From: Verrucomicrobiia bacterium
Lineage (GTDB): Bacteria; Verrucomicrobiota; Verrucomicrobiia; Verrucomicrobiales; DEV007
Assembly (NCBI GenBank): GCA_020439995.1
Contig: JAGROY010000137.1
Span: 1-64,000 of the forward strand
Length of the DNA stretch: 64,000 nucleotides
Direction: 5' to 3'
In this document: positions 5,226 through 47,630 of the stretch, piece by piece
Layout: each line of letters starts with the position of its first letter
How positions within the stretch are numbered: position 1 is the stretch's first letter
Program-made: the position numbers and the translations under genes
Notes under the pieces: generated by a model
What the model saw: the letters and a program-made list of their open reading frames with translations, nothing else
Database searches by the model: none
Told to the model about the DNA's origin: nothing

Positions 5226-7013
5226 TTACTTTGATTCGATCCGGATCCGGAAGTGAGCGTTGCGGGGTGGGGAGGTATCTGGCCAGCGATAGGTGACAAA
5301 TTCCCAACCGGGCCGCAGGAAATTTGGAAAGGTTCTGTCCTCGACGATCTGACCATTGCCACTGCTCCAGGATTGAAGGTCAGTGCTCACTTCAGGGATA
5401 CATCGAAGTCCTTCGAAATTTTCATAACTGCCGTCGGCGTAGCGCTTCGCATTGGTGCGTCGTTGAAAGGTGAATGCGGGAACTTCCTTTCTTACGAGGA
5501 ATGGCAACGTTCCAGCAAATACCGTTCCTTTGTCAGGGAAGGTCCTCCATTTAGAATAATCGCTCGGGTCACTGTCACTTGCTCCCATCGCCTCTTCGAG
5601 AAGAATAGATGCTCCATCTCGATCCAGATCGTCAGAATCAGGCACGCTCACTGCCAAAACCATTTCCACGGTATCTGTTGATTCATTTCTGCGCCCAAAA
5701 AGCATGCCAAATCGCCCTTCCGAAGTTGCTGCGATCTTCACCAGGCGAGAAGGGTTTCCGAGGAAGTAGTCGGCGTCAGCGGAGTCTAGAGGCAGTGGCT
5801 GCGAAGGCGGAAGATAGAATCCTTCATTTCTGGTGATCGTTGCTGCAGCGTTTACTTGTATAAATGACTGTCGAGCGAAAGCGACATGTGATCGTTCACT
5901 GTCACTGCCAGGCGGAGCAACAAAGCTGACGTCGCTCAAGGCACTATCCTCGCCTTCGCAGCCAACGGGCCCTACTCCAAGATCAATTACGAACACCCCA
6001 GTCCCTGCGTATGAACCTTTGGAGATCGATGCGGATTTCTCAATGCAATTCGAAATGGTTTCCTTGAACCAGAAAACCGGGGCCTGCCCGCCCAGTTTTG
6101 TATAGGCGCTACCGCCCTTGCCGTAACCAACTTCGATCAGCCCGGGGGAGCTGCTGAATGTTCGCAAGCTAATGGTCGGGGTAAAGTCACGAAGACTGTC
6201 TGATCGATCGATCATTGAGATCGGCCAATCGCCTGCATCGGACAGGGTGCCTTGTTGTAAGATAATGCGATTTCCGTTCTGGCCATCATCCGCGACATAG
6301 CCAACGGCAGCGCCTTCCCGCGGTCGGTCATTGGTGAAAACAACTGCTGGTGTGCATCTTGCGTGAGGTGTGGTGCCGAGTTTCCGTGTGCCCCAGGTGC
6401 TCGCGGTTGAGTTGGCGTCGCTGCTTTCGGCGTAGATCACCTCAAACGCTCCCGGAGTGTCGATCGCCTTGTCGGTCCTTGAAAGGTAGACCAAGGCAAC
6501 GCGCGGCTCACGCACCGTTCCACCCCCGACTATGGACACTTGAGCGATGCCTTTGCCGTTCTGGAACAGAGTCGTTCCTCGAAAGCTGCCATTTCTGGGC
6601 CGCGCAGTGTAACTTACGTTGCTGCCTTTTGAGACAAACACCACGTGCACCGTGCCCCGGGCGTCAACTGCGATACTGGGAGGCGCCACTAGACTGTCGC
6701 TTGAAGTTGCGATCTGCACTGGCTCGTTCAAACCACTGGCACGAGACCAGCTTCGATAGAAAACTGCGCCGGAATCCAATCGCCAATAGGTCATGTGAAA
6801 ATCGCCATCCGGACCGGCTGCGATATCTCCCTGCTGTCCTGGGATGTTGGGATCCCAGTCATTTTCGGCCTGAACGATGGGAATCATCGTCAACCGAGGA
6901 GACGCCTCGGCGAGAGAGGCGAGTATTAGCAGGCCGCAGATGCCAACACTTGCAAGTATGGAGATTGAGATCTTCGATTCCGTGTTCGTCATTGCATTTG
7001 ATTCGACTTTCAT
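5226..7013 (-). CDS. Exported BNR/sialidase-like propeller protein
   Basis: About 595 residues. The start at 7013 is chosen because GGAAAG precedes it and a clean signal peptide follows (core SISILASVGICGLLILASLAEA). An ATG at 6992 is an equally possible start. The open frame extends to 7247, but that upstream part lies in the divergent promoter region. Residues about 40-440 have repeated blocks like IAAGPDGDFHMTYW and SIAVDARGTVHVVFV, which fit BNR or similar beta-propeller blades. No catalytic RIP motif or sialidase triad is evident. After DRDGASILLEEAMG comes a C-terminal module ending CIPEVSTDLQSW...HFRIRIESK, like the sorting or C-terminal module common in secreted verrucomicrobial proteins. 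It heads the run that continues with the LRR and EF-Tu-like lipoproteins. Confidence 0.75.
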   Translation of the reverse strand: MKVESNAMTNTESKISISILASVGICGLLILASLAEASPRLTMIPIVQAENDWDPNIPGQQGDIAAGPDGDFHMTYWRLDSGAVFYRSWSRASGLNEPVQIATSSDSLVAPPSIAVDARGTVHVVFVSKGSNVSYTARPRNGSFRGTTLFQNGKGIAQVSIVGGGTVREPRVALVYLSRTDKAIDTPGAFEVIYAESSDANSTASTWGTRKLGTTPHARCTPAVVFTNDRPREGAAVGYVADDGQNGNRIILQQGTLSDAGDWPISMIDRSDSLRDFTPTISLRTFSSSPGLIEVGYGKGGSAYTKLGGQAPVFWFKETISNCIEKSASISKGSYAGTGVFVIDLGVGPVGCEGEDSALSDVSFVAPPGSDSERSHVAFARQSFIQVNAAATITRNEGFYLPPSQPLPLDSADADYFLGNPSRLVKIAATSEGRFGMLFGRRNESTDTVEMVLAVSVPDSDDLDRDGASILLEEAMGASDSDPSDYSKWRTFPDKGTVFAGTLPFLVRKEVPAFTFQRRTNAKRYADGSYENFEGLRCIPEVSTDLQSWSSGNGQIVEDRTFPNFLRPGWEFVTYRWPDTSPPRNAHFRIRIESK

Positions 7014-7095
7014 TCTTTCCGAATGGAATCCAGGCCGCTGCGTTACTGACAAAATCGTTTTTTTTTCGGGGCGGCGCTTTTTCTGAACATTCGTC

Positions 7096-7121
7096 TGTAA
7101 CCATCTCACGACGTTTTCGTT
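7096..7121 (+). promoter_or_regulatory. Candidate ECF-type promoter of the sigma/kinase operon
   Basis: TGTAACC at 7096-7102 and CGTT at 7118-7121 are separated by 15 bases. This resembles ECF-sigma promoters (AAC-containing -35, CGT-containing -10), although the spacer is a little short. It lies about 90 bp upstream of the sigma factor start used here, so autoregulation is plausible. GGGAAGG follows at 7123-7129, before in-frame ATGs at 7133 and 7139, which leaves the true start of the sigma factor open. Confidence 0.35.
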
Positions 7122-7213
7122 CGGGAAGGATGATGACGATGCTGCCATTTTCTGTAGTTCTTCTTGCCGGGAGTTGCACAGGTTGTGCTCCCCGTATACT
7201 ATCGGCATCCACG

Positions 7214-7966
7214 ATGATCGATGAATTCTCGCGCTCTCAAAAGGCACCTGATCGCCCGGGGACGGGTGTGGGATTTCCGGCGACTCGCTGGAGTCTGATT
7301 GTGGGCCTGGCCGAAGGCAGCGAAGACGAGCGCCGCGAGGCGATGGAAGAACTGTGCCGATCTTACTGGTTTCCTCTCTATGCTTTCGCCAGGCATCAGG
7401 GGCATTCGCGGCACAATGCTGAGGACTTGACTCAGGGATTCTTTGCCCACCTGCTCTCCAAAAACCGGTTGAGCTACCTACAGGGAGCAGAGGGGCGGCT
7501 GCGCACCTATCTGCTCGGCGCTATGAAGCGGTTCATCACGGATGAATGGCGCGCTGCCAGCGCGCAGAAACGTGGGGGAGGCAGGAACATTATTTCGCTC
7601 GATTCATGTGCCGCCGATGGTCGGTATCTTGAGATTGCCGATGAAGGCGGCACCCCGGAGGATATCTTTCATCAGCAATGGGTTCTCAGTCTGTTGACGA
7701 AAGCCCGCGATCGCGTGAAGCAAGCCTACTCTGCGACCGACAAGGCGCGACTGTTTGCCGCTATCGAGCCAGCGATCACTGATTCCGATAACATTGACTA
7801 TGACGCGCTATCTGTCTCACTGGACATGAGTCCGGGAGCAATCCGCACCGCTATCCATCGATTGCGCCGACGGTTTGGTGACGCCATTCGGCAGGAAATC
7901 GCCGAGACAGTGGCGGATTCGGAGGAGGCAGCGACAGAGTATCAGGAACTGTTGGCTCATGGCTGA
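7214..7966 (+). CDS. ECF-family RNA polymerase sigma factor
   Basis: About 250 residues from the ATG at 7214. The family start FPATRWSLIVGL appears near residue 20. Region 2 contains LCRSYWFPLYAFARHQG and NAEDLTQGFFAHLL, with the conserved DLTQ-F motif. Region 4 has YDALSVSLDMSPGAIRTAIHRLRRRFGDAIR, a helix-turn-helix. The long linker between them and the pairing with a kinase match the ECF subgroups of Planctomycetota and Verrucomicrobiota that lack an anti-sigma factor. In-frame ATGs at 7133 and 7139, preceded by GGGAAGG, would add an odd hydrophobic, Cys-containing N-terminus (LPFSVVLLAGSCTGC). I prefer 7214 because family members begin shortly before PATRW. The gene overlaps the downstream kinase gene by 8 bp, so the two are translationally coupled. 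Confidence 0.9.
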   Translation: MIDEFSRSQKAPDRPGTGVGFPATRWSLIVGLAEGSEDERREAMEELCRSYWFPLYAFARHQGHSRHNAEDLTQGFFAHLLSKNRLSYLQGAEGRLRTYLLGAMKRFITDEWRAASAQKRGGGRNIISLDSCAADGRYLEIADEGGTPEDIFHQQWVLSLLTKARDRVKQAYSATDKARLFAAIEPAITDSDNIDYDALSVSLDMSPGAIRTAIHRLRRRFGDAIRQEIAETVADSEEAATEYQELLAHG

Positions 7967-10900
7967 CTCTGCCGGATCTAAACGCCACTGTCGCACGTGC
8001 GACAGGCTGATACCAAGCTTTGCTCCTGGCGGGCATTGCCCGAGTTGCCTGTTGCGAGGCAGCGAAGAGTTATCACGTCCGGCGCAATGGGATGATCGAT
8101 TCACTATCATTCGCGAACTCGGTGAAGGAGGATTTGGTCGAGTCTATCTTGCCGAGCAGCATGAGCCAGTGCGTCGCAAAGTGGCGCTAAAGATCATCAA
8201 GCCGGGAATGGGAACACGCGAAGTCATTGCCCGGTTCGAGGTCGAGCGGCAGGCTCTGGCGGCACTCGATCATCCTAATATTGCCACGATCTATGATGCC
8301 GGTGAGACGGCAGATGGCCATCCAGCAATCGCGATGGAATACGTTCCAGGCTTGCCGATCACAGACTTTGCCGGTGAACACAATCTCGGCCTCAGGGAGC
8401 GGCTGGAGTTGTTCGTAAAGGTGTGTCAGGGGGTGCATCATGCACACTTGCATGGCATTATTCACCGTGATCTCAAACCGAGCAATCTGCTGACCTATTC
8501 TGGCACTGATGGAGATCGGTTGGTGCGTATTATTGATTTTGGCATCGCCAAAGCCACCCGACAGGGGATGAACGATGCCACGCTCGTCACTCTACAGCAT
8601 CGACCGCTGGGAACACCCGCCTACATGAGCCCCGAACAGGCTGAGGGCTGGCGGGACGTGGACGCCCGCACGGATGTCTATTCGCTAGGCGCGCTACTCT
8701 ACGAAATACTGACGAACACACCACCACTCGAGGGGAAGAAGGGTTCGGAGGAATCGACCTGGGATAGCCTGCTGAAACAGATCCGCGAGGAATCTCCATG
8801 CATGCCATCGAAGCGGCTGGCGCGAACTCCCATGTCTCCTGATTCAAATTGGGGGCCACGTGAGCTTGCTGGGGATCTGGACTGGATCGCGCTGACCGCT
8901 TTAGCCAAAGACAGGCAGCGCCGCTACCAGTCTGTAGATGCGCTCAGAGAAGATATCTGCGCTTATCTTGAAGGGCGTCCTATAGTAGCGAGGTCGCCTG
9001 GCCTGGTGTATCGCTCGGGTAAGTGGATCGGTCGCCATCGAGTTGCCAGTGCTGCGATTTTGGCCGCAGTCGTTGCGTTGCTCGCAGGCACGATTGTCAG
9101 CGCAGTGCTGGCAATTCGGGCGGAGAGGGCCCGCGCGCGAGCTGAAACTTTGGAGCGAAACGCGGAACTGGGGCGTAAGGAATCTCAGCGGGGATTTTCG
9201 CAGGCCGACTACCAACAGGGGTGTCGATTGCTGGCCGATAATGAATTTGAGGCCGGAATTGCCCATCTTTGCCGGGCTCTGCGCACTGATCCTAGGAACA
9301 GCGCTGCTGCGAACCGACTCGCAGCCACGCTCGCTTATACGAACTTCCTCCCGCCACTGGTGCCAGAGGCTCTGCATCCGTCGCGAGTCATCGACGTCTA
9401 CTTTCGCAATGAAGCAGAATTCGTGACCGTTTCGGAAGGTGGAGTCGTTGGCCTGTGGAGCAGGGAGAGCGGCGAGCGTCTCGGCGACTGGCTGGATCAT
9501 GGTGGCGAGCGCATCTTGAGCTCCTCCATTAGCACGAATAAACAACGGCTCGTCACGACAACAGCTGAGCGTGGTGTAAGGGTGTGGGATCTGGACGACC
9601 GCAGATTGCTTCTTCAGGTGACCAGCGAAGCGACGACTGGATTACCAATGGTGGCCGTTTTTTCGGGTAGCGACGCGATCGTTACCGGCTCCAGCAAGGG
9701 GAGCGTTTGTAAATGGGATATCGACGACCGAACTTTACTCTGGCAGCAGAACTACGGTCATCCGGTGGAGTGGCTTGATGCTGCTGGCGACCAGCTCATT
9801 GCAGTGTCAGGGGCTTCAGCTGCCTACGTTCTGAATAGCGTCGATGGTGTGCGCCGTTCTTATCACTTTCAACACGGGCGAGAAGTAATGCGCGCCCGCT
9901 TCAGCCCTGATGGTAAACGATTGCTCACGGCATCGCTTGATGGAATTGCCCGCGTTTGGAACGTTGCGACTGGAGAACCTGTAACACCGCCAATGGTGCA
10001 TGACCTGTCGCTGTATGATGCCACTTGGGCCCCTGGTGGAGTTCGCGTTGCCACAGCTGCCTACGATGCAACTGCCCGTGTATGGTGGGCGGCTACAGGA
10101 AAGCCAGTGACACCTGGATTGCGTCACGGTGATCATGTCTACTCAGCAATCATGCCGATCGGTGGCAGGCTGCTGGCTACAGGAGGGCGCGATCAGAAAT
10201 TGCGTCTGTGGGATGCGGCCACTGGGCAGTTGATCGCTGCGCCGGTGACTCATGAGCGCAGTGTAAGCACCATCGATTTAGACAGCCTGCGGCAGCAGGT
10301 TCTCGTCGGCGGCAGGCATGAGCAGGTAAGGTTGCTTGATATTCGGCAGCGTTCAGCTTTGCCAGTGAGATTTCGATCGCCTGGAAAAGTGAGTTTTTCT
10401 CAAATCCAGGAAGGCGGGCGGGTGATGCGGACGTTATACAGGAAGGATGGCGGCTTTGTCATCGAGAGGCGTGAGACTGATTCCGGTGCCATCCTGGGAG
10501 AACCGCTCCAACTGGGAGCAGTGCCTGCGCTCGATGCGGCCAAGAAAAACGATAGACTTGTCGTCAAGCATGACAATAGACGCGTCAGCATTTATGCAGA
10601 CAGTTCTGGTGCGCTGCTGGTGCCGACGTTCTCGTTCTACACGGACATTAAGCATATCGAGATCGATGCCTCTGGTCGATTTGTGTTCATTTGCGGAACC
10701 GCTGGCAAGGCGGTTTTGCTCACTCTCGATGAACGCGCTGAGAATCAATATGGCCTTGTTAGTGAAGTTCTCGAGCCATTTCCCGGCAGGCCCGTCGACG
10801 ATGTGATCATGCTGGGAGATCCCCCGTATGTTGCAGCTCGGCTTGGCGATCAGGTTAGGATTTACTCGGTCGGCGAAAAGAGCTGGCTTCCAGAGGGAAT

Positions 10901-11612
10901 TATGCACGAGGGCGGGATAGGATCCTGGGATTTTCATCCCGGCCAGGGGATTGTCATCACAGGAGGCTATCACGATACCGCGAAAATCTGGGACATGCAT
11001 ACCGGGATGCTAAAGCATCCAGATTTCGCACATGCTGACGTTGAGAGCGGCCTCGCTGTGAAGGTCTTATTCTCTCCCGACGGACGGCTCGCAGTGACGT
11101 CGAGCTGGCACGAACTCGCTGCGCGTGTTTGGAATACCGAAACCGGAATTCTCGTGGCAAACCCGTTATACCAGAACGCACACATCGATAGCCTCGCTAT
11201 CGATCCGACATCGCGCTATCTTGCGGCGACATCGGATGATAGAACGATGCGGATCTGGAACATCGAGGATGGCTACGAGGCGATCCCAGTGCAACAGATT
11301 GAAGCTGGCCTCGCTCGTGGGCGTTTCCTGCCGGACGGCACTGGTTTCCTCGCAGTCCAGGGCAACGAAACTCTTCTCTGGCCGCTGCCAGCTTTCACTG
11401 AATTGGCTCCCGACTGGGTCATAAACTTTGCCGAATCTCTGGTCGGACGCAGACTGGATTCTAATGGTGTTCTGCTCAGGCTTCCCGACACACCCGTGCA
11501 TCAGTTGCGGAGCCAGCTTCCAGAATCTGAATCCTGGTTCGAAGCGTGGTTCAAATGGATTGCCGCAGATCCTTCGGAACGAGCTCCGAGCGTACATGGC
11601 GTGAGTTACTAG
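7959..11612 (+). CDS. Membrane Ser/Thr protein kinase with zinc ribbon and WD40 repeats
   Basis: 1217 residues from the ATG at 7959, inside the end of the sigma factor gene. Residues 11-30 carry two C-x-x-C pairs (zinc ribbon). The kinase domain spans about 48-330 with P-loop GEGGFG (55-60), VALK lysine 78, HRDLKPSN (169-176), DFG (193-195) and GTPAYMSPEQ, so it should be active. One transmembrane helix lies at about 358-382, followed by a basic, coiled-coil-like stretch. The C-terminal 730 residues are WD40-like repeats (ARVWNVATGEPVTPP, KLRLWDAATGQL, MRIWNIEDG), probably one or two propellers outside the membrane. By analogy with kinase-linked ECF sigma factors, it probably phosphorylates the upstream sigma factor in response to a signal sensed by the propeller. 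Confidence 0.93.
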   Translation: MADSAGSKRHCRTCDRLIPSFAPGGHCPSCLLRGSEELSRPAQWDDRFTIIRELGEGGFGRVYLAEQHEPVRRKVALKIIKPGMGTREVIARFEVERQALAALDHPNIATIYDAGETADGHPAIAMEYVPGLPITDFAGEHNLGLRERLELFVKVCQGVHHAHLHGIIHRDLKPSNLLTYSGTDGDRLVRIIDFGIAKATRQGMNDATLVTLQHRPLGTPAYMSPEQAEGWRDVDARTDVYSLGALLYEILTNTPPLEGKKGSEESTWDSLLKQIREESPCMPSKRLARTPMSPDSNWGPRELAGDLDWIALTALAKDRQRRYQSVDALREDICAYLEGRPIVARSPGLVYRSGKWIGRHRVASAAILAAVVALLAGTIVSAVLAIRAERARARAETLERNAELGRKESQRGFSQADYQQGCRLLADNEFEAGIAHLCRALRTDPRNSAAANRLAATLAYTNFLPPLVPEALHPSRVIDVYFRNEAEFVTVSEGGVVGLWSRESGERLGDWLDHGGERILSSSISTNKQRLVTTTAERGVRVWDLDDRRLLLQVTSEATTGLPMVAVFSGSDAIVTGSSKGSVCKWDIDDRTLLWQQNYGHPVEWLDAAGDQLIAVSGASAAYVLNSVDGVRRSYHFQHGREVMRARFSPDGKRLLTASLDGIARVWNVATGEPVTPPMVHDLSLYDATWAPGGVRVATAAYDATARVWWAATGKPVTPGLRHGDHVYSAIMPIGGRLLATGGRDQKLRLWDAATGQLIAAPVTHERSVSTIDLDSLRQQVLVGGRHEQVRLLDIRQRSALPVRFRSPGKVSFSQIQEGGRVMRTLYRKDGGFVIERRETDSGAILGEPLQLGAVPALDAAKKNDRLVVKHDNRRVSIYADSSGALLVPTFSFYTDIKHIEIDASGRFVFICGTAGKAVLLTLDERAENQYGLVSEVLEPFPGRPVDDVIMLGDPPYVAARLGDQVRIYSVGEKSWLPEGIMHEGGIGSWDFHPGQGIVITGGYHDTAKIWDMHTGMLKHPDFAHADVESGLAVKVLFSPDGRLAVTSSWHELAARVWNTETGILVANPLYQNAHIDSLAIDPTSRYLAATSDDRTMRIWNIEDGYEAIPVQQIEAGLARGRFLPDGTGFLAVQGNETLLWPLPAFTELAPDWVINFAESLVGRRLDSNGVLLRLPDTPVHQLRSQLPESESWFEAWFKWIAADPSERAPSVHGVSY

Positions 11613-26649: not shown

Positions 26650-27981
26650 TCAACGAAATGATTCAGTAGCGGTATTACGAGCAAGGCCCTTGGGCAGGGT
26701 CGTCAACCATGCGGTTGCAGCTTCGGGATCAGCTTTAACGTAATCCGTGGCGAAACGCCTGACGGTCGAAGTCGAAACTCGTTTGAGCCGCGAGCCCAGT
26801 TCAGCCACTGCAGTTACCCTGTCCCGTTCGAATAGATCTGCAAATGCACGAGCCTCAATGGAGGGCCGCACACTCGCTGGTAGCTGGTCGACCCAGTCCA
26901 ATCCCGCCGCTGGGTCGGCGGCGACGTATGCTAATCCTATTTTTTCGAGAGGGACACGGTCTGCCCTCACCGGTAGATTCGAAGACATCACGAATTCTGC
27001 AACCGTTGAGACATCTACACTTAGCCAATGTGGAAGGATCGCACGAAATCCCACTTCCTGTCGCACGGAATCTTGCTGATCAAGCGTCCATCCGAGCGCA
27101 GCCGTGAAATCCCGGCGTGCCCAAGCTTCGATGATTGGGCGAATTCCAGAAGCTTCCGATCGAGAGGAACCCGGCGATAAATACCAATCGATTGCTCCTA
27201 CTGGATCTGTCTCGCCTAACTCGATCGCAATCTGCTCCTTGAACATCGATCGCGTTTTCCAATCCACGATTTGTCCCGTTTCGTAAGCCTTGATTGCCCC
27301 GTCGAGATCGTCTTTTGCCCAAGTTTTGATCACGTCTTCTATCGCAGTTGTTCTTGCCCAGCCTGCAAGCGAATTCGCCCAGGTGAGAGCTGCCGAAGGA
27401 TCTGTCTCAGCCCAGGCAGCCGAAAAAGAAAAGTGATCCGCCCCGTCCTGATTCGCGGCAATTTCGGGGACAAGCCTGCATGCCTCAATGGGATGCTCCC
27501 TCAGCCACATGGGCAGTATATCGAGATGCTGCCACTCTTTCAGCACCTCCGCCGCCCTTGTCGGATCCTGCTCAAAAGCGACGTCCAGCACCGCGCCGAC
27601 GGCACGATGCAATGCTCCATTCTTGATGCTGTGCAGTGCCTCGATTGCGCCCTCTGGGTCCCGCTGCGCCCAGGCTGTAAACATCGCAGCGTAGTGGTCG
27701 CTGTAGAGAAACCGTTTCGATTCTGCCACCGCTTTCTCCAGATCAGCAAGAGCACCCCACGGATTCCGGTCAGCCTTCATTAGCAGGTTCGTAACGGACG
27801 TCACCGGTTCTCTGCGAGGGAGTGGACCCAAGTCGTACGAGCCCACTTTTCGCTCTGGCGTGTGAACCTTCTCTCTCGATTCCACGACCGGACCTGATGT
27901 TCCATTCAAGAAACTTCCGGCGAGATATCCGAAAGATCCTCCGCCAAACAACGCGGCAACTGCTATCGCGACCTTTTTCAC
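26650..27981 (-). CDS. Membrane-anchored DPxxAxxWA helical-repeat protein (second gene of pair 1)
   Basis: 443 residues from a GTG at 27981, chosen because GTGA overlaps the upstream stop by 4 bp and because the protein then begins with a neat anchor (VKKVAIAVAALFGGGSFGYLAG). An upstream ATG at 28035 would read through the end of the previous gene. The rest consists of degenerate units of roughly 30-40 residues built on W-A-x-x-D-P-x-x-A-x-x-W-A, for example AAWAETDPSAALTWANSLAG, VAADPAAGLDWVDQLPASV and VKADPEAATAWLTTLPKGL. This predicts a helical solenoid in the periplasm or outside the cell. Three paralogues occur in the window. No enzyme motif is seen, so a scaffold or binding role is only inferred. 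Confidence 0.8.
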   Translation of the reverse strand: MKKVAIAVAALFGGGSFGYLAGSFLNGTSGPVVESREKVHTPERKVGSYDLGPLPRREPVTSVTNLLMKADRNPWGALADLEKAVAESKRFLYSDHYAAMFTAWAQRDPEGAIEALHSIKNGALHRAVGAVLDVAFEQDPTRAAEVLKEWQHLDILPMWLREHPIEACRLVPEIAANQDGADHFSFSAAWAETDPSAALTWANSLAGWARTTAIEDVIKTWAKDDLDGAIKAYETGQIVDWKTRSMFKEQIAIELGETDPVGAIDWYLSPGSSRSEASGIRPIIEAWARRDFTAALGWTLDQQDSVRQEVGFRAILPHWLSVDVSTVAEFVMSSNLPVRADRVPLEKIGLAYVAADPAAGLDWVDQLPASVRPSIEARAFADLFERDRVTAVAELGSRLKRVSTSTVRRFATDYVKADPEAATAWLTTLPKGLARNTATESFR

Positions 27982-29834
27982 TGATCGCCGATCCTCTCTG
28001 TAGCTGCGCGCGCCGACTCCACTCGAAGTCGCCATTTTTCACGCCGCTCCACATCATCGATTTCCTCAACCCATTCCAGTGCCGCAATTGGATCCTGCAT
28101 CAAACTTCCACTAATGAGAGCAGTGATCGCCTCTTGGCGAACAGGCCCTGGCTCAAGTTCGAGAACCAGCGCCGAGGCAGCAATGCCGTTATCTCTTGCC
28201 CAGGTCGGGAGCATCCAGGCTGTCGCCTGTTTCATGGCGGCTTCAGTGAGATCAATCGATTGAAGCCATTCGAATGTCTCAGCCGCCGACTCCGTCGGAA
28301 CCTTGCTTGCAACTAAACTGGCAGCTTGCCCTCGCACATTTTTGTCAGTCAGAGACTCGATAAAATCTTTTGCGCCGTTCAGATCGATGTCCGCGATTGC
28401 GGTGGCAACAGAACTTGCCATAGCCTGGTAGCCAGGGTGCTCGCGATAACTATCCAGCTTTCCAAGTGTTTCCGGGCTCCCCGAATGAACCATGTCCGAT
28501 AACCTTTTCGCGATGTGTTGGCCTTGGCTCTCAATCGGTGCACGATCAATCGTCTTCCAAAACAAATCGGAATGGCTTTCGAATCCGTATTTGGCTCTGG
28601 CTTCGAAAACAGCCTCCCACATTTCTTGAATCGCCTCACCCTCCGGAAGGGACTCAATGTACGCAACTGCGGAATCGAGTTCGACACCTGTCCGCCTTCC
28701 CAGTAGTGCCAGGCGCATCTGGGTTTTGATCGTGAGTGAACTGAGGCTATCGACCGATTTCAGTATCTCCCCGATCTGATAAGGCAGGGTGGGTTCGGAG
28801 AGTGCGCTGATCAAGTTCGCTTGTACAATCTCATTTGAGGTGCTGGCAATAGCGTGAATCGTCTCTGCTTCCCCTGCATTCAGGAACGATTTTTGCAGGA
28901 AATCTCTCGACCAACCCGTGACCTGTACTTCCTCGTTGAAGTGGCGAACTGCCCAGTCGATCGCCGCACTGGGATCAGTCTTGGTCATTTGCTCTAGAAT
29001 CAACGCGGCAGACTTTTCCGAGTGGGAGGGATCGTCCATTTCCAACAGTAACGGAATGGCAGCGTCAGGATTCAATCGCCCAATTTCCACCGCAACTGCA
29101 GCAATCGCTGCATCTCGCTGCTTGGGATTAGCGAGTGCCGTTGCCCACTCTATAGCGGAGGCACCGTTGGTGCGCGCCATTGCCACCGCAATTCCCGCCA
29201 TCGCTTCAACTTTCGCTTCCGGAGACAACACTGTCGCCATTTTCAAGGCCTTCTCCCGATCGTCGGCGAACCAATTCGCGAAGGCAATGGTCACGATACC
29301 ATTCGCCCAATTGTAGGTTTGCCCTGTACTTTCCCAGATTGCCACCAACTCAAGGCACCGTTCTGGCGAGCGCAATACGATTGCTTGTGCAATGCTCGCA
29401 ATCGTTCCCGCCCTCTTCTCAGAAATCAGTCGTTTTGTAGCCGCCTGCGGATCGATCAGCGCCCACTCTCCAAGAAAAGAGATCCACGTGTTCCAATCCT
29501 CCATGAAGTATTCATAGCCACCCTCTGGATCAATCGCTGCCCACCGCGCGAGCACCCTTTGTCGACCGATAAAGCCACGCGCGTCATCACCGAACGATTC
29601 CCACTGTTCGCGAAGGGAATCGCCATCGACGAGCTGCGCAATCTTTGAAAAATCGTCGGCGACCCCAGCTTCTAAATCTGAAGGCGATACTCTCGAGGCC
29701 ATTATTTGCTCGGACGGCAATCTTTCGTCGGTTGATATTCGCATCGAGCCACTCTTCGCCAGTGCAAATCCTCCGATACAGCCCGCAACGGTCAATCCCA
29801 TTGGAAGCCAGTGCTGTATCATCCCATTTTGCAT
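27978..29834 (-). CDS. Membrane-anchored DPxxAxxWA helical-repeat protein (first gene of pair 1)
   Basis: 618 residues from the ATG at 29834, which has GAGG 4 bp upstream. The open frame reaches 29912 but the extra residues precede the anchor (WLPMGLTVAGCIGGFALAKSG). After a linker, the first unit LARWAAIDPEGGYEYFMEDW resembles the first units of the three paralogues. Further units include MTKTDPSAAIDWAVRHF and LMQDPIAALEWVEEI. The C-terminal third has SLTDKNVRGQAASLVASKVP-type helices. Expected fold: an all-alpha solenoid, anchored by its N-terminus. Its stop overlaps the GTG of the next paralogue, so the pair is co-translated. Confidence 0.8.
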   Translation of the reverse strand: MQNGMIQHWLPMGLTVAGCIGGFALAKSGSMRISTDERLPSEQIMASRVSPSDLEAGVADDFSKIAQLVDGDSLREQWESFGDDARGFIGRQRVLARWAAIDPEGGYEYFMEDWNTWISFLGEWALIDPQAATKRLISEKRAGTIASIAQAIVLRSPERCLELVAIWESTGQTYNWANGIVTIAFANWFADDREKALKMATVLSPEAKVEAMAGIAVAMARTNGASAIEWATALANPKQRDAAIAAVAVEIGRLNPDAAIPLLLEMDDPSHSEKSAALILEQMTKTDPSAAIDWAVRHFNEEVQVTGWSRDFLQKSFLNAGEAETIHAIASTSNEIVQANLISALSEPTLPYQIGEILKSVDSLSSLTIKTQMRLALLGRRTGVELDSAVAYIESLPEGEAIQEMWEAVFEARAKYGFESHSDLFWKTIDRAPIESQGQHIAKRLSDMVHSGSPETLGKLDSYREHPGYQAMASSVATAIADIDLNGAKDFIESLTDKNVRGQAASLVASKVPTESAAETFEWLQSIDLTEAAMKQATAWMLPTWARDNGIAASALVLELEPGPVRQEAITALISGSLMQDPIAALEWVEEIDDVERREKWRLRVESARAATERIGDQ

Positions 29835-29883: not shown

Positions 29884-31644
29884 CTACATTCCTTCCGGAG
29901 GGTAAGGGTCATTGGAAATGCTTATTTTGTCGAGCATCGCCCCATCTTCGCGGTAGGCGATGGTCAGGGTGTGGTCGCCTGGTTTCAGCGAAAAGTTGTT
30001 GAGCTTGACCCAGCTCCAGCCGCTCGTTCCTAAACCGTTTTGCGATTCGAATGGGCCACCGTCCATTTTCATCCAGAATGAGTCGTCATTAGCAGAGGGG
30101 CAATTCAGGCGCGCGAATACTGCATAGTTTCCGTCCCGTTCGACTGAGAATTTTATCGAAATGGCATTTTCACTGCCGACAGGTGCTGACGCGATACTTT
30201 CGTTGCCTGCCTTTACTACCGCATACCGACCGTTCGAGGCCTGGTCATCGGTGACGATCTCCCAGCTTGCACCGACCGTTGCGCTTTCGATTTCGAGAGT
30301 CACCGTCTCAATTTCCTCCATGTTTCGTGGCGGGAATATCGGTTCGGATTTTCCCCACCAGGCGATCCAGCGGGAGTAATCAATTTCAAACGGGCTTTCC
30401 GCAACATTCGTGTCCGCATCCGTTTTTCCGAGAAGGAATTTGTCGACGAATGCCTCGACCTCTGGCCTCTGACTGTCTGGGAGCTGGCAGTGGCCGTGAC
30501 CCGGAACGATGGAAAATCCAAATCGGTCTGCGATACCAAACGTTTTCCAGACTTCGTGCGCGGCCCGGCAGGAGACGTAGCCAGATTCATCAGCCAGCCA
30601 CTCGTAGTCTGGATTTCCTAATACGAGCAGCGCACGGGGAGCGACCATCGCCATGAGTTCATGGTGATCCATGGGGAGCTTTGCGACGTTGCCACCGGAA
30701 AACTGGAACATGTCCTCAATGAACCAGGCGCGGCTGGTGGCACCCAGTTTTTCCACTTTCCCCAGCGTCTCCGAGACCCGCCAGGCGGCTGCTCCGCCGC
30801 CACCTGGTTCCTGGGCGATTGTCAGGGCAATGCGTTCATCCAATGCACCCGCGAAGAGCGCCATTTTACCCGCAAAGGAACATCCAGTGATAGCCAGATG
30901 TGCCAGGTCTATTGGAAGATCTTTCTGTGTCAGTTCCAGACCATCGATCAAGCGGCTTACTCCCCAGGGCCAGGCGCTGTAGGCACCCATCTCGGACAAT
31001 TCGGGGTAGAGTTTGTTGATCGGTTCACTGCCACGTTTCTGAGTGTGGGACATGACCTGGCCAAAGTTGAATGCCACCATCGCGATGCCGCGGCTGCGAA
31101 AGATATCGACGGGAAGGCTGCCGGAACCTCGGCCAATTCCGATCACCGCCGGGAACGGGCCATCGCCATCGGGAAGTGAAACAGCTGCGGTCAGAGTCAG
31201 CGTTTGCCCGTTCACGGTGACATTCACTGTGAGTTTTCTATCACCGTAGCTGGCGGTGATATTCTCGGGACGGGCGGGTTTACTGCCGATCTCGTAGTGT
31301 TCGATTTCCGCTTTGATCTCGGCTCGACGGTGGCTCCATTTACTGAAGTCAGTGGCGCGTCCGCTGCCGTCCGACCAGAGGAACGGGTCGGTCAGCGGTG
31401 CCACTGCTGGAAGATCGCCAATATCTGGAAGAGGCGGTGCCGGAAACTCGGCCCCCGTGTTCTCGACCGTGTAAACCAATGGTGGATGCACGGCTCGATC
31501 CTTCTCCGCATTACCAGCAACTTCCTCCGCTCTGCCGCAGAGCGCTGCTCCCAGCACCATCGCAATCAGTAGCGCATTGTGGACTCCGCAGCCTGCAAGT
31601 ATAGAATTTTCTTGTCTGATTTGCTGGTGGGGCGGGCGTTTCAT
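29884..31644 (-). CDS. CE15-like glucuronoyl esterase with C-terminal carbohydrate-binding domain
   Basis: 586 residues from the ATG at 31644, followed by an N-terminal export signal (ALLIAMVLGAALCGRAEE). An in-frame start at 31791 would lie inside the neighbouring gene. The alpha/beta-hydrolase core matches carbohydrate esterase family 15: ITGCSFAGK holds nucleophile Ser256 (the family has GCSRxGK, so Arg is replaced by Phe-Ala here), Glu279 in QEPGGGG and His385 in GHGHC complete the triad. Family members cut ester bonds between lignin and 4-O-methylglucuronic acid in xylan. Residues about 440-586 resemble a CBM6/35-like jelly roll (IKFSVERDGNYAVFARLNCP, LKPGDHTLTIAYRED). The other polysaccharide genes follow at 33.6-42.6 kb. 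Confidence 0.8.
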   Translation of the reverse strand: MKRPPHQQIRQENSILAGCGVHNALLIAMVLGAALCGRAEEVAGNAEKDRAVHPPLVYTVENTGAEFPAPPLPDIGDLPAVAPLTDPFLWSDGSGRATDFSKWSHRRAEIKAEIEHYEIGSKPARPENITASYGDRKLTVNVTVNGQTLTLTAAVSLPDGDGPFPAVIGIGRGSGSLPVDIFRSRGIAMVAFNFGQVMSHTQKRGSEPINKLYPELSEMGAYSAWPWGVSRLIDGLELTQKDLPIDLAHLAITGCSFAGKMALFAGALDERIALTIAQEPGGGGAAAWRVSETLGKVEKLGATSRAWFIEDMFQFSGGNVAKLPMDHHELMAMVAPRALLVLGNPDYEWLADESGYVSCRAAHEVWKTFGIADRFGFSIVPGHGHCQLPDSQRPEVEAFVDKFLLGKTDADTNVAESPFEIDYSRWIAWWGKSEPIFPPRNMEEIETVTLEIESATVGASWEIVTDDQASNGRYAVVKAGNESIASAPVGSENAISIKFSVERDGNYAVFARLNCPSANDDSFWMKMDGGPFESQNGLGTSGWSWVKLNNFSLKPGDHTLTIAYREDGAMLDKISISNDPYPPEGM

Positions 31645-31726
31645 GGAAACGATAATACTGACGCGGGGATAATTAGACAAGCTCGGGCGACTGGTAGCTT
31701 GAGCTGCCAGAATTCGAGCGACTTTA

Positions 31727-32908
31727 TTACTCCTGTGGATCGGAGATTCGGACGTATCGCAATACTGCCCACGACCAGATTGCCACAGCAATGATCCAAC
31801 TGAGCGCGGCGTAGATGTGATGTGATACTCGAATCGCGGGTACCATGTCTGCGACGACGCGGGTGGTCATTCCGAGTAGGACGATGCCTGTGATGATCTG
31901 GAGCGATCGCCTTTTGCCCGCTGCCAGTGCGATGTTTCCGCTGTGGCCCCAGGTGACTCGCGTAGCCACCGCCAGGATGAGTAGACCGTAGCCGCTGATG
32001 AACATCAGGTGTTTCACGCCGACGCGATAGGCTGGATTGGTTCCTGAGACCAAGATTCCGAGTAGCAGGCAGGCAATGGCAACGCGCAGCATGAATGACA
32101 GTGAGCCGGTGGAGCCACCACGGCGGAACGGTGAAAATTGTCTATGCAGGTAAACTGTCGCGACAACAGCACGCAGTACTGGCGCGCTAGTGTCCCATCC
32201 GGATGCCTGAGCAAGGTAGGTAGCGAGCAGGGCGATGCCTGTCAGAAAGGCGAAGAGGGCTCGATGGTTCCATGTCGATGTCTGTTCGATGGAGGATGCG
32301 TCTGCAAAGAATCGCGGGAAGAGAAATCCGCCGATGCCAGCGATTGGCCCGAGAATGAAGGCTTCGTAAAGAAGCAGGTGAGCGAGTGTTCGTTGAAAGT
32401 CCGACAGCACGAGGATTCGCCCTGTCAGAAGCAGGATCGTTCCAGTGATTCCGGCGGCCAGTCCCATTCCTGCGAGCACAAATCCTGGCGGTGGAAGATC
32501 TTTACGGAAGAATGCGAGGCGAACCGAGAGGCAACCGGTCATGAACATCCAGGTGAAAAGGAACAGGCCGTCACCCGCTGCCACATTGCCGAATGCGAGC
32601 GTAACCATACCACCAGCGTGGCTTGTGAGCAGAATCCCCAGCTCCGGCCAGGTGAGCGACGGGCTTTCGATCATCTTTGGAAATGCAGTGCCGAGGAATC
32701 CCATCGCAAATGCACCGACGAATCCCTGAACCATGAGCCGCGCATGTGCCTCGCCTGGATAGAATTCCAGCCATCCGGCGTAGAGAAGCAACCACAGCGA
32801 GACTCCTGCGAGACTTGCTACGATACCTGCCGGAAAGAACAGGCGGAACGGTTCCTTGCGCCAGGTGACTGTAGACCTGCGGCTAGTGGCGAATCGGCAA
32901 CGGGGCAT
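31727..32908 (-). CDS. nnrS: NnrS family membrane protein
   Basis: 393 residues with about 12 transmembrane helices and the family start RKEPFRLFFPAGIVASLAGVS. Further family traits are HARLMVQGFVGAFAMGFLGTAFPKM, GPIAGIGGFLFPRFF, and the late HLMFISGYGLLILAVATRVTWGHSG, which supply the conserved histidines. NnrS proteins contain haem and copper and are linked to nitric-oxide stress and denitrification. No NO reductase or nitrite reductase is nearby. The truncated hemoglobin at 2.3 kb is the only other NO-related gene visible here. No clear Shine-Dalgarno sequence precedes the ATG, and the start is the only good one upstream of the conserved EPFR motif. Confidence 0.88.
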   Translation of the reverse strand: MPRCRFATSRRSTVTWRKEPFRLFFPAGIVASLAGVSLWLLLYAGWLEFYPGEAHARLMVQGFVGAFAMGFLGTAFPKMIESPSLTWPELGILLTSHAGGMVTLAFGNVAAGDGLFLFTWMFMTGCLSVRLAFFRKDLPPPGFVLAGMGLAAGITGTILLLTGRILVLSDFQRTLAHLLLYEAFILGPIAGIGGFLFPRFFADASSIEQTSTWNHRALFAFLTGIALLATYLAQASGWDTSAPVLRAVVATVYLHRQFSPFRRGGSTGSLSFMLRVAIACLLLGILVSGTNPAYRVGVKHLMFISGYGLLILAVATRVTWGHSGNIALAAGKRRSLQIITGIVLLGMTTRVVADMVPAIRVSHHIYAALSWIIAVAIWSWAVLRYVRISDPQE

Positions 32909-44137: not shown

Positions 44138-45816
44138 TCAGAATTGTGCGTTCTCCAGGAATGCCCTGTCGGCGTCGGACAAGATCGGATTCTCGATCAG
44201 ATGCCGGGAGAGTTCTCCGGGTGATCGATCCATGATGTGGAGCAAGGCTTCACGTCGTTTTGCGTCGTCGATGATTGTCGCTGCGAGCGGGACCAGATCG
44301 TTTGAGTCGTTGCCTTTGGATGAGGTGATGTAGACCTGTGCGGCAGTGTCGCCGAACGGGCCGGGTTCAAGGTGCTCGATCCATTCTTGTGTGGCCGTAC
44401 GGTCAAGATTCGCGCGTTGGGTGACGATGGTCGTAGCGGCTGCGGCTTGAAAGGCGCTGTCAGGCAACTGCGCTGCGTACGTCATGGCGGCGGCGGAATC
44501 GAGTGTGACCCAACGTTCAAGTGCGGCGCGAGCGGCGGGCAGTGCCAGGGAATCATCGAGGCCTGCCGCCCAATTGATCGCCGCCTCAGGATCTTCGTTG
44601 GCAACTGGAATGCGATGGCTTCGGCAATTGCTGACGAGATCGTTGCGGGATCGGATTCGGAAATGATTTCCGCAGCGCGGGATGCGGGGACTGGCAATTC
44701 GTATCTGCTCAGTCGATCAGCTTCGGCAGCAGGATCGTCCATTGTAAGCAGATCCCGAAGTGCGTCCTCCGATCGGAGAGGCCATTGCGTTGCCTCCTCT
44801 GGTGTAGTGTAGAGTCCTCGTCTCTCCAGTTCTGCCGTGATGGCAGGGCGCTCCTCTTCGGTGGTGCCGTAGATCACACTTCGAGCGAGATGGTCTCGCT
44901 CCGCCTGGTTGGCACTGATCCCGATTTTTTCAATCAATTCGATCGCCTGCTGTGGATCCTTATCTGCGGCGTTCAGAGCTAAATTTCCGAGGAGTGTGTC
45001 ATCGTAAGGGTAATCTTCGAAATACTTCAGAACCTGTTCCATGCCAAACTCAAAGTCTTTGGCGAATGCACCAGTGATCAGGGATTTTACCATTCCTTTG
45101 TTGTTCCAGCCCGTGTTTTCATCAGCCCAGCGTTTCGCCGCCTCATGATCCTTTTTCGCCAGCGCGGCAAAGGCGAAATCCACGCACGGATGCTGGTAGT
45201 TTTCCTCGATCAAAAGGTTGAGAAACGCATTCAACGAATTCGCTGATGCGGTCTGGAAAATCCCATCGCCAATTGTTGTGGTGCGATCCAGCACTTCCAA
45301 TGTCAGCGCTGCACTCCCTCGCTTCATCGCTTCCGCGAGTGCACGGTCGGAGACGTAATTGTGGGAGAAGGTGTTTCCAGATGCACCAAAATCAGGCATT
45401 GCATCGAGATGCCGGAAAGCTGCAACGGGATCTTTCAGCGACCAGTGTTGCATCATGCGCGACAATCTTCTTTGATCGCCAGTCGCCCGGAGACGGTCCG
45501 CAGCGCTCACGGGATCCAGCTCGATGAGGCGAGCGAGAATGCGGTCTTGGCAGATGCGGTTTGCGGGATCATGCCACAGAGCCCAGAGCTCTTCAAAGCT
45601 GGCCGAGTCGATCGTCTGAAAAATTGCAAGCTGAGCGGCGAAGCGTGGCGAATCCTCCGCATTCGGCGATTCGATCTTTGATGGTAACGCAGCGGAAGCC
45701 AATATAGGTGCGGCTTCAGGACTCGTGAGCGGTGACTGACGTTGGCCTTTTCCAAAGAACCATCCCAGACCTCCTGACACTGCGAGGCAGATTGCGACGA
45801 TGGTGGCGTGCTTCAT
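44138..45816 (-). pseudogene. Frameshifted DPxxAxxWA repeat-family gene (second gene of pair 2)
   Basis: From the ATG at 45816 the protein has an anchor (IVAICLAVSGGLGWFFGKG) and family units (LARLIELDPVSAADRLRA, HWSLKDPVAAFRHLDAMP). The frame stays family-like to SESDPATIS near 44650, then degenerates into a run ending at 44482. The family sequence resumes in the frame one base back, PVANEDPEAAINWAAGLDDS, and continues to a stop at 44138. The joined product would be about 559 residues, with no stop between. There is no slippery heptamer or long homopolymer at the junction (44608-44650), so this is a one-base loss or a sequencing error rather than obvious programmed frameshifting. Its ATG overlaps the upstream stop by 4 bp. 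Confidence 0.75.
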
Positions 45817-47630
45817 GGTGATGCGTTGAGTTGGTTCTGCAGCCTGAGCGCGAGCGCCTGTTTTTCGCGATCGCTGATGGCCGCGTTGCAGATTGCTGTG
45901 GCTGCGGCAACGGGGTCGTTCGGAGCCCATCGTTTGACCACATTGATCAACTGTCCGCCGCGTTGGGCATCATCGTTGATCGACTGCGCCCAGGCGAAGG
46001 CATTCGGTGGGTCGGTTTCGAGTGTCCGCCTTACCAGACGTTGCGCGATGTTGTCCCGTCCGGTCGACGGCGGCAGCGCGTTGAACCATTCAGCCGTGGC
46101 GGCATTGGCGGGGATCACATTTTGCAGGCCGCTCAGTGCGCGTTCGCGGCCATCACCTTCCGGCAGCGCGGCAGCCCAGGCCATCGCCTGATCAGGATCC
46201 TGCCTCGCCCAGACCTCTGCCATCAAGTAGTCTGGATGTTGATTGCGGTAGTCCGACGGCAGAGCATCCAGAAAGACCGATGCTGCCTCGGCATTCAGGC
46301 CAGCGATCTCAGGAAAAGAACTGGCGATGATTTCGTGGGCGCGGGCCTCATCGTAGCGTTCCTGAATCATGGCCATTGCGGCTTCGCCCGTTTCACGACC
46401 TCCGCGCTTCGCCTGCCCGACCATGACTTGCATCTCATAGCTGTCCCTTTCCGGGCCTGGAGGAATGGTGTTCAGAGCACGGAGCGCTGCTCCGAAGTTT
46501 CTCGCTACAAAGCCAGCGCCGATCGTGCCGTAGGTATCGACTTTGTCACCGTCTGGGATGTTCTCATTGATCCATTCAATGGTCGATGCGTTCATTGGTC
46601 CAGACCAGTTGATCCATACATGGCGCGTCAGCTTGTCCTTTACTTCCCCTTCTGGAATGGCTTGCAGCAGTTGCAGTCGAGCGCTTCCCTCGGAGTCTGA
46701 TGAAAGAGAATATAGAGCGTCATATTGCACTTCCGGTGGGCAATGCTTCAGCACCCAGTCGACTCCGGTCTTGGCATCTGTCGCGTCGCAGATTCTTTTC
46801 GCGATCTCGGCCACAAAATACCTGCGGCGATCTCTGTTTTCGAAGTCGAGGTCTTCAATCGCTTTGCCTGTGGCTTCGGGATTCAGCATGGCTGTGTTTT
46901 TGATGATGCTTTGCAGTGCGAGACTCCGTGTCTCTGGCGATTCGATTCGCGCCGCCCAAGTCGAGGCTGTTTTGGAATCAGCCTTGGCCCACTCACCAAG
47001 GAGTCTGACCGCTTCACTCTGATCTTTGACTGCGTCCAGCACCCGTGGAGCCAGGGTGGGATCGCTCTGGATGATTGCGTCGGCAAAAGTGTCCAGGAAA
47101 CTCGGGTGCGATCTCAAAACCTCATCCAGCACGAACGCAGGCTCTGTACTTGTAAGATACCCTAACATTGATTGCAATGCGATCTCGCGATTGGGAGATG
47201 GAAGTCCGGTGGCGTAGTCCAGAGCGGCATCTCGATTGGCCTGTGCGAATGCAACCATGAACTCCCCGCCGAGTCCGTAGACCTTGTCATGCTTCATTCC
47301 CGAAAAGAATGTTTTCGCACCTTCCAGATCGAGATCGATCCAGCGTGCTACCAGCAAATGGCGCGCACCCAGTGTTCCTGCGCACGTTTCCCAGAGGGAT
47401 GGAAAATCGCTGACTTTGGCCCGCAGAATTTCTGCAGCAGTGCGGGACAAAGACGATCCGATTGTGTCAGCAGAATCGTTGTCTTGAATGTTGTTCCTTA
47501 CCAGTTCGCTCGTCGCCACCTGTGCCGTGCGCTCCTTGCCGCTGCCAAGGCAATAACCACAGGCAAACGTCGCTGCCATCGCGACTCCGAGCATTCCCAA
47601 TTCGGCGATCGCGGCCCAATTGTTCTTCAT
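45813..47630 (-). CDS. Membrane-anchored DPxxAxxWA helical-repeat protein (first gene of pair 2)
   Basis: 605 residues from the ATG at 47630; the frame is open to 47666 but the anchor (LGMLGVAMAATFACGYCLGSG) sits correctly only with this start. Units include VARWIDLDLEGAKTFFSGM near the N-terminus, EVWARQDPDQAMAWAAALPE and RTLETDPPNAFAWAQSI near the C-terminus, spaced by about 30-40 residues. It shares with the other three proteins an N-terminal anchor, a short linker with L-W in the first helix, and the same first unit. This marks one paralogous family in two loci 15 kb apart. No catalytic motif is visible. Co-translated with the frameshifted gene that follows. Confidence 0.8.
   Translation of the reverse strand: MKNNWAAIAELGMLGVAMAATFACGYCLGSGKERTAQVATSELVRNNIQDNDSADTIGSSLSRTAAEILRAKVSDFPSLWETCAGTLGARHLLVARWIDLDLEGAKTFFSGMKHDKVYGLGGEFMVAFAQANRDAALDYATGLPSPNREIALQSMLGYLTSTEPAFVLDEVLRSHPSFLDTFADAIIQSDPTLAPRVLDAVKDQSEAVRLLGEWAKADSKTASTWAARIESPETRSLALQSIIKNTAMLNPEATGKAIEDLDFENRDRRRYFVAEIAKRICDATDAKTGVDWVLKHCPPEVQYDALYSLSSDSEGSARLQLLQAIPEGEVKDKLTRHVWINWSGPMNASTIEWINENIPDGDKVDTYGTIGAGFVARNFGAALRALNTIPPGPERDSYEMQVMVGQAKRGGRETGEAAMAMIQERYDEARAHEIIASSFPEIAGLNAEAASVFLDALPSDYRNQHPDYLMAEVWARQDPDQAMAWAAALPEGDGRERALSGLQNVIPANAATAEWFNALPPSTGRDNIAQRLVRRTLETDPPNAFAWAQSINDDAQRGGQLINVVKRWAPNDPVAAATAICNAAISDREKQALALRLQNQLNASP

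Follow-up and report, generated by a model that had tools for sequence, protein, structure and literature searches.

The DNA stretch analysed here, referred to as the window, comprises the first 64,000 nt of contig JAGROY010000137.1 (assembly GCA_020439995.1) of a Verrucomicrobiia bacterium, and the element under study is a pair of overlapping genes, pair 1, all features of which lie on the minus strand. The first gene, A (29834-27978), begins with ATG and encodes a protein of 618 aa. The second gene, B (27981-26650), begins with GTG and encodes a protein of 443 aa. The stop codon of A overlaps the start codon of B by 4 bp in the motif GTGA (27978-27981). Both products are anchored alpha-solenoid proteins. 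An earlier note on this DNA had described the overlap and an N-terminus followed by degenerate repeat units only, and both were present as claimed. The note had further assigned one N-terminal anchor to each protein. This was clear for B, whose predicted anchor (residues 4-22, 27916-27972) reaches a hydropathy of 1.63, but the predicted anchor helix of A (residues 4-26, 29757-29825) is weak: it is a helix of low pLDDT (predicted local distance difference test score) in the AlphaFold model, it is glycine-rich and only weakly hydrophobic, and its mean hydropathy stays below 1.4 in every 19-residue stretch. Almost no cytoplasmic tail precedes the anchor of A. The helical repeat region, which was delimited in the AlphaFold model for A, extends over residues 51-616 of A (27987-29684) and residues 88-441 of B (26659-27720), and 9 and 8 units, respectively, were scored with the profile described below. 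By eye, and in comparison with the C-terminal consensus of relatives, the last unit is absent from B.

The repeat units were analyzed with a profile that was built from 294 units of loci outside the window only (leave-window-out). It matched A with an E value of 4.5e-25 and B with 6.7e-29, and it also matched the two genes of a second pair in the window, A' (2.5e-35) and B' (4.3e-9). The best E value was 0.014 for 500 shuffled window proteins and 2.3 for 66 other open reading frames (ORFs) of the window. In a direct comparison, A and B turned out to be very distant (BLASTP E value 0.002), and their kinship, proposed in the earlier note, is therefore upheld by the common unit profile, not by pairwise similarity. 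The strict core DPxxAxx[WFY] occurs three times in B, a number not reached in any of 2000 shuffles, and twice in A, a number reached in 1 of 2000 shuffles. Because the strict core is so rare in A and B, most of their units are degenerate. The distances from one DPxxAxxW-like core to the next in family ORFs have a sharp maximum at 32 residues, with 41 cases, and the consensus of the unit is a helical hairpin, in which a helix, a DP turn and a second helix are followed by LPDG.

In the AlphaFold model of A, residues 51-616 are entirely helical and follow a separate helix (residues 4-26) and a low-confidence linker. The mean pLDDT of the model is 72, and residues 300-460 mostly have values between 50 and 70. 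Tandem helical hairpins, the hallmark of the alpha-solenoid fold class, were thus found in the model of A and are matched by the 32-residue period. Foldseek and VIA searches yielded generic HEAT/ARM/PPR solenoids, with best Z scores of 10.6 for A and 9.7 for a relative of A with a sigma factor domain, which are values that the arrangement of helical repeats can produce by itself; families other than those listed may also match. None of the Pfam families reached its cut-off for the genes of the window; the best match was HEAT_2 in A with 12.9 bits (cut-off 27.7 bits), and B had none. NCBIfam, PADLOC and PHROGs, run on three or four of the window proteins, gave no usable family, and a sequence search of the PDB with A gave no match. 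A match to a known repeat family such as SLR, TPR or HEAT, named in the earlier note as a result that would overturn its reading, was obtained in none of the profile libraries, and the second such result, a lack of conservation of the pairs, was not observed either.

The own genome of the window has 8.83 Mb in 490 contigs. Family loci were collected from matches to A, from matches to a 21-row alignment (A1) and from some sigma factor loci, and their ORFs were scanned with the unit profile. After 2 of 122 ORFs had been dropped as overlapping, at least 120 family ORFs were retained, and 85 of them form 43 same-strand adjacent pairs among the matches listed. By a rough estimate, a random distribution of about 120 genes among about 7000 would give about one adjacent pair on the same strand. 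The exact 4-bp overlap was found at 22 of the 43 junctions (19 ATGA, 3 GTGA), and the other junctions lie within 15 bp. By comparison, such overlaps were found for 25 of 185 same-strand neighbours outside the family in the first set of own-genome loci (L021-L058 and the window). The recurrence of coupled pairs that had been claimed from the window alone was thus borne out by the 43 pairs of the own genome, and a survey showed that pairs are also conserved in other genomes. Matches were obtained in at least 73 of 288 genomes of the phylum and in at least 40 of 57 relatives, with few candidates scored per genome. In the out-group, the 20 regions that were fetched (L077-L096) contain single genes, with the exception of one ambiguous split case with a gap of 41 bp. 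Because the members fetched from outside two families of the order are single genes apart from this case, pairing appears to be a lineage-specific variant within a more widespread protein family.

The pair survey covered 74 pairs from four genomes, i.e., the own genome and G034, G004 and G037. The A-A and B-B similarity matrices were compared for 66 of the pairs; eight were left out because they were short or belonged to the out-group. The two matrices were highly correlated (Pearson 0.91, Spearman 0.51), and none of 5000 permutations had a Pearson coefficient as high. In 39 of the 66 pairs the locus with the nearest A was also the locus with the nearest B, compared with about one expected by chance. 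For A, the closest match was another A and not any B in 56 of the 66 pairs, and for B it was another B and not any A in 51. Because A and B are nearer to their own counterparts elsewhere, local tandem duplication is not the source of the pairs, which are thus old and were spread with both partners as one unit. The A/B label required 32 changes, compared with 52 for shuffled labels, in a fast tree (211 rows) from which family ORFs of less than 400 aa were left out. The end branches of this tree are long, and no order of gain or loss was read from it.

Membrane segments were tallied for own, relative and out-group loci together. One hydrophobic segment was found in 114 of 154 ORFs of at least 380 aa without a sigma factor domain, none in 39 and two in 1. 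For 110 N-terminal segments, the N-side flank was the more positive one in 64 cases and the C-side flank in 27; because of this bias, the anchors of the proteins without sigma factor lean towards an orientation with the N-terminus inside and the C-terminus outside. GxxxG, a motif that packs membrane helices, occurs in 83 of 139 anchors, compared with 33.6 (standard deviation 4.2) in shuffles and with 9 of 143 hydrophobic segments at the N-termini of other ORFs. This enrichment fits an association through the anchors. The partners are co-encoded and co-diverge, as would be expected of a two-subunit membrane complex. Pairing, co-divergence and the GxxxG-rich anchors support an A-B heteromer without proving it, and the earlier proposal that two related solenoids form a heteromer thus gained indirect support.

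An additional domain was found in relatives of A. Many first genes of other pairs begin with an extracytoplasmic function (ECF) sigma70 factor, for which both Pfam regions 2 and 4 were found in all 5 proteins tested, with one region 2 just under the cut-off; a second Pfam run found both regions in further first-gene fusions. The order in these sigma-A proteins is sigma factor (about 180 aa), linker, membrane segment and solenoid. At least one membrane segment above the threshold was predicted for 27 of 32 fusions, and in 25 of these it starts at residues 179-310. The sigma factor is on A in 26 of the 74 pairs, on B in 2, both of which lie directly behind another pair, and it is absent from 46; the regions from G034, G004 and G037 were picked from search matches, often for adjacency, and these counts are thus not a fair sample. 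In the own genome it is on A in 8 of the 43 pairs and on B in one, and 13 family ORFs in all contain it. Four genomes contain near-full-length sigma-A fusions, and one of these genomes (G037) belongs to another family of the order. One sigma-A protein is 77% identical between the own genome and a genome of another genus, and there B follows again. Sigma-A/B pairs are present in the records JAUIAH01 (Verrucomicrobiia bacterium 5_bin.36) and JANQJH01 (Verrucomicrobiales PL25a_bin.108). The part comprising sigma factor and linker had matches in 20 of the 57 relatives, often in long open frames. Because one own-genome frame with a similar sigma-linker platform (L103:1735-3597, minus strand, contig C407) has TPRs in place of the solenoid, this platform may also be combined with modules other than the solenoid. 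Two loci of G034 have a separate sigma gene immediately before an A gene whose cytoplasmic tail is long. By eye, this tail is suggestive of an anti-sigma factor; its resemblance to the N-terminus of a FecR protein is weak (hhalign probability 13%, E value 0.0021). The uncharacterised family and the recurring coupled pairs of the earlier note were supported, and its heteromer indirectly so; the ECF sigma fusions on first genes, which provide a lead to function, had been missed.

Pair 1 was compared with a sigma-bearing pair of the own genome. Window A matched the sigma-A protein L023:12769-15384 with 72 bits (E value 3e-17), in an alignment that lies inside the solenoid, and window B matched the B partner of this protein with 59 bits (E value 1e-13). 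The order of pair 1 thus corresponds to that of a sigma-bearing pair, with A matching A and B matching B, and both matches are stronger than that between window A and window B. The L023 pair is not the reciprocal best match; the genes of the window have equally good or better matches among other members of the family, including A, B and single genes.

From its sequence, we tentatively read pair 1 as a copy, without sigma factor, of an envelope receptor pair by which an ECF sigma factor is tethered elsewhere, and we rate this reading at somewhat less than even. A and B would form one receptor-like complex as its two subunits; a single N-terminal helix would hold each of them in the inner membrane, with the alpha-solenoid outside the cytoplasm. 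They would be made together by translational coupling, as suggested by the overlapping junction, and would associate through their anchors and solenoids, to which co-divergence and GxxxG point. In many pairs, the sequence of A contains an ECF sigma factor on the cytoplasmic side of the membrane helix, so that the complex would tether it to the membrane. The pair of solenoids would sense an envelope cue and determine when the sigma factor is set free, probably through a cut in A within the membrane or close to it, by analogy with IutY. A receptor formed by A and B that holds or frees the sigma factor is proposed because the extracytoplasmic part comes with a second solenoid that would be made together with it and that co-evolves with it. 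The pairs in the window would be such receptors without an on-board output, which would act either through a partner encoded elsewhere or as independent sensors or scaffolds. A wider formulation appears doubtful to us: an undescribed transmembrane signalling family of the Verrucomicrobiota with more than 40 pairs in one genome, in which two co-translated, anchored solenoids would form a heteromeric envelope receptor, with an A that in many copies tethers the ECF sigma factor directly and a B as its dedicated co-receptor, and in which the sigma-less pairs would be modulating co-receptors or decoys.

Several results weigh against the receptor interpretation. Pfam did not detect sigma70 region 2 or 4 in A and B or in either of the two window pairs, and only 8 of the 43 own-genome pairs have the sigma factor on A. 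In the first set of own-genome loci, no stand-alone sigma gene was found beside the pairs that lack a sigma factor; the extra sigma ORFs of this set are a truncated fusion and one ORF of 552 aa, neither of which adjoins a sigma-less pair. The arrangement of a separate sigma gene and a long A tail was encountered only at the two loci in G034, and the FecR likeness of the tail is weak. GxxxG occurs in only 5 of 30 membrane segments of sigma fusions. The A and B labels cluster in the tree without forming two clean clades, and the sigma labels cluster without being monophyletic. No common promoter motif was found, as neither a k-mer nor a dyad stood out in 47 upstream regions of family heads compared with 142 controls, and the top dyad counts equal those in control subsets. 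A recurrent neighbour gene was also not found: immediate neighbours with a length of 150 aa or more number 66 in the first set of own-genome loci, and no Pfam family occurred in more than three of them. Because almost all members fetched from the out-group are single genes without a sigma factor, the sigma factor may be a late recruit and not part of the core function.

These points bear directly on the explanation that ranks close behind the receptor reading and that we regard as possible, namely that A and B are a heteromeric periplasmic scaffold or a cargo-binding pair, e.g., in a polysaccharide-processing or secretion complex, which does not signal, and that the sigma fusion came late and ties the expression of some copies to assembly. 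The absence of the sigma factor from most pairs and from nearly all out-group members fetched agrees with such a role. The fold, a solenoid of the generic type that binds proteins, agrees with it as well, and a periplasmic flagellar scaffold gave a weak structural match (rank 8). However, no partner gene recurred among the 66 neighbouring proteins, about 120 diverged copies are unusual for a structural scaffold, and the fusion of a sigma factor to A was found repeatedly, in four genomes. The generic fold, together with the HEAT_2 match below the threshold in A, could also mean that A and B are ordinary members of the HEAT, TPR, SLR or PPR families and that the pair is nothing special. This appears improbable, as none of the libraries and databases searched, from Pfam and NCBIfam cut-offs to PADLOC, PHROGs and, for A, the PDB, yielded such an assignment, and it would leave the conservation and the co-divergence of the pairs unexplained.

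Two further explanations start from the number of copies and from their adjacency. The very many, very diverged and dispersed copies in one genome, with unrelated neighbours, would suit a diversifying recognition system for kin, phages or competitors, in which the dispersed A/B pairs provide different binding surfaces. No effector domain turned up, PADLOC assigned no defence family to three window proteins tested and gave one weak match (OloA, 5.2e-05) in a single-gene relative, and the good conservation of one sigma-A/B pair across genera is unlike that of a gene in an arms race; we consider this role slightly less probable still than membership in a known repeat family. Lastly, as the repeat unit is common to both genes, the adjacency might be an artefact of recent tandem duplication with overlaps that arose by chance. 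We regard this as refuted and give it almost no weight, because A and B resemble counterparts at other loci more than each other and because the exact 4-bp overlap is present at 22 of 43 family junctions, compared with 25 of 185 other neighbours.

The receptor reading has precedents in membrane-tethered sigma factors. SCO4117 (ECF52) and IutY (ECF243) are described as being released, or expected to be released, by proteolysis (PMC8999054), and they combine a cytoplasmic sigma factor, a membrane helix and an extracytoplasmic sensory part in one polypeptide, as do the sigma-fused relatives of A (PMC8999054). In contrast to SCO4117 and IutY, the extracytoplasmic part of the family is an alpha-solenoid of 32-residue repeats, to which Pfam assigned no family in those sigma-fused proteins that were tested; an overlapping gene encodes a second anchored solenoid, and dozens of pairs occur per genome. 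Furthermore, a zinc anti-sigma domain was not found in the family, and the window pairs are without a sigma factor. ECF42 and ECF57 sigma factors have C-terminal extensions of TPR and WD40 repeats, respectively, and share with the fusions the combination of a sigma factor with a repeat domain for protein contact; neither a membrane helix between sigma factor and repeats nor a coupled paralogous partner is mentioned for them (PMC8999054). The sequences of their repeats are unlike those of the family. The family shares with HEAT, ARM and PPR alpha-solenoids the stacking of helical hairpins into a superhelix, but no curated HEAT, TPR or PPR profile reached its cut-off in the window genes. The sigma genes directly before long-tailed A genes at two loci of G034 recall a classical ECF sigma factor with a FecR-type anti-sigma factor, but the tail is only weakly FecR-like, and this arrangement was not seen in the window.

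Neither the family nor a solenoid module with a coupled partner was described in the literature searched, the coverage of which mostly excludes subscription papers. The fold class and tethered sigma factors are already known, and the sequence family, to which a single genome contributes at least 120 ORFs, is unnamed in the libraries searched. With the sigma fusions, a repeat family without annotation becomes the subject of a signalling hypothesis that can be tested. The fusions also suggest that membrane-tethered ECF sigma factors have a new type of extracytoplasmic module whose partner is co-encoded. As A and B co-diverge, the family is a natural system in which to analyse how paralogous receptor pairs keep their specificity.

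The second pair of the window is also located on the minus strand. Gene A' (45813-47630) encodes 605 aa and matches the unit profile, and gene B' (44138-45816) overlaps it in the motif ATGA. The repetition of the coupled arrangement at 44.1-47.6 kb, noted earlier, is thus real, but B' is frameshifted between about 44640 and 44485: one ORF ends at 44482, the family match goes on in another frame to 44138, and an intact B' is absent. The frameshift reflects either the decay of one subunit or an assembly error.

Several additional observations were made in the window and at single-gene relatives. Directly upstream of pair 1 and on the same strand (29884-32908, minus), a protein with a glucuronyl esterase domain (PF22244) and an NnrS protein are encoded, and it is possible that both genes form one operon with pair 1. 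The sole sigma match of the window lies about 20 kb from pair 1; an ECF sigma70-like ORF (PF07638) and a subsequent protein kinase of 1245 aa with WD40 repeats occupy 6350-11612 (plus strand) and look like a kinase-linked ECF system. In the out-group genome G188, the single-gene relative L092:7401-9665 (plus strand) matches ELYS (PF13934), a nuclear-pore protein. An identity of the family with ELYS was rejected, because only L092 was above the cut-off (E value 1.1e-8), in one stretch, three other relatives were far below it, and the window genes had no match; the L092 match is probably due to convergent helical-repeat composition. In two other genomes (G068, L088:5302-13433; G215, L089:5260-13440), a single-gene relative is located between a helicase-like gene and two genes resembling ImuB and DnaE2, a likeness that was judged by eye from the N-termini only.

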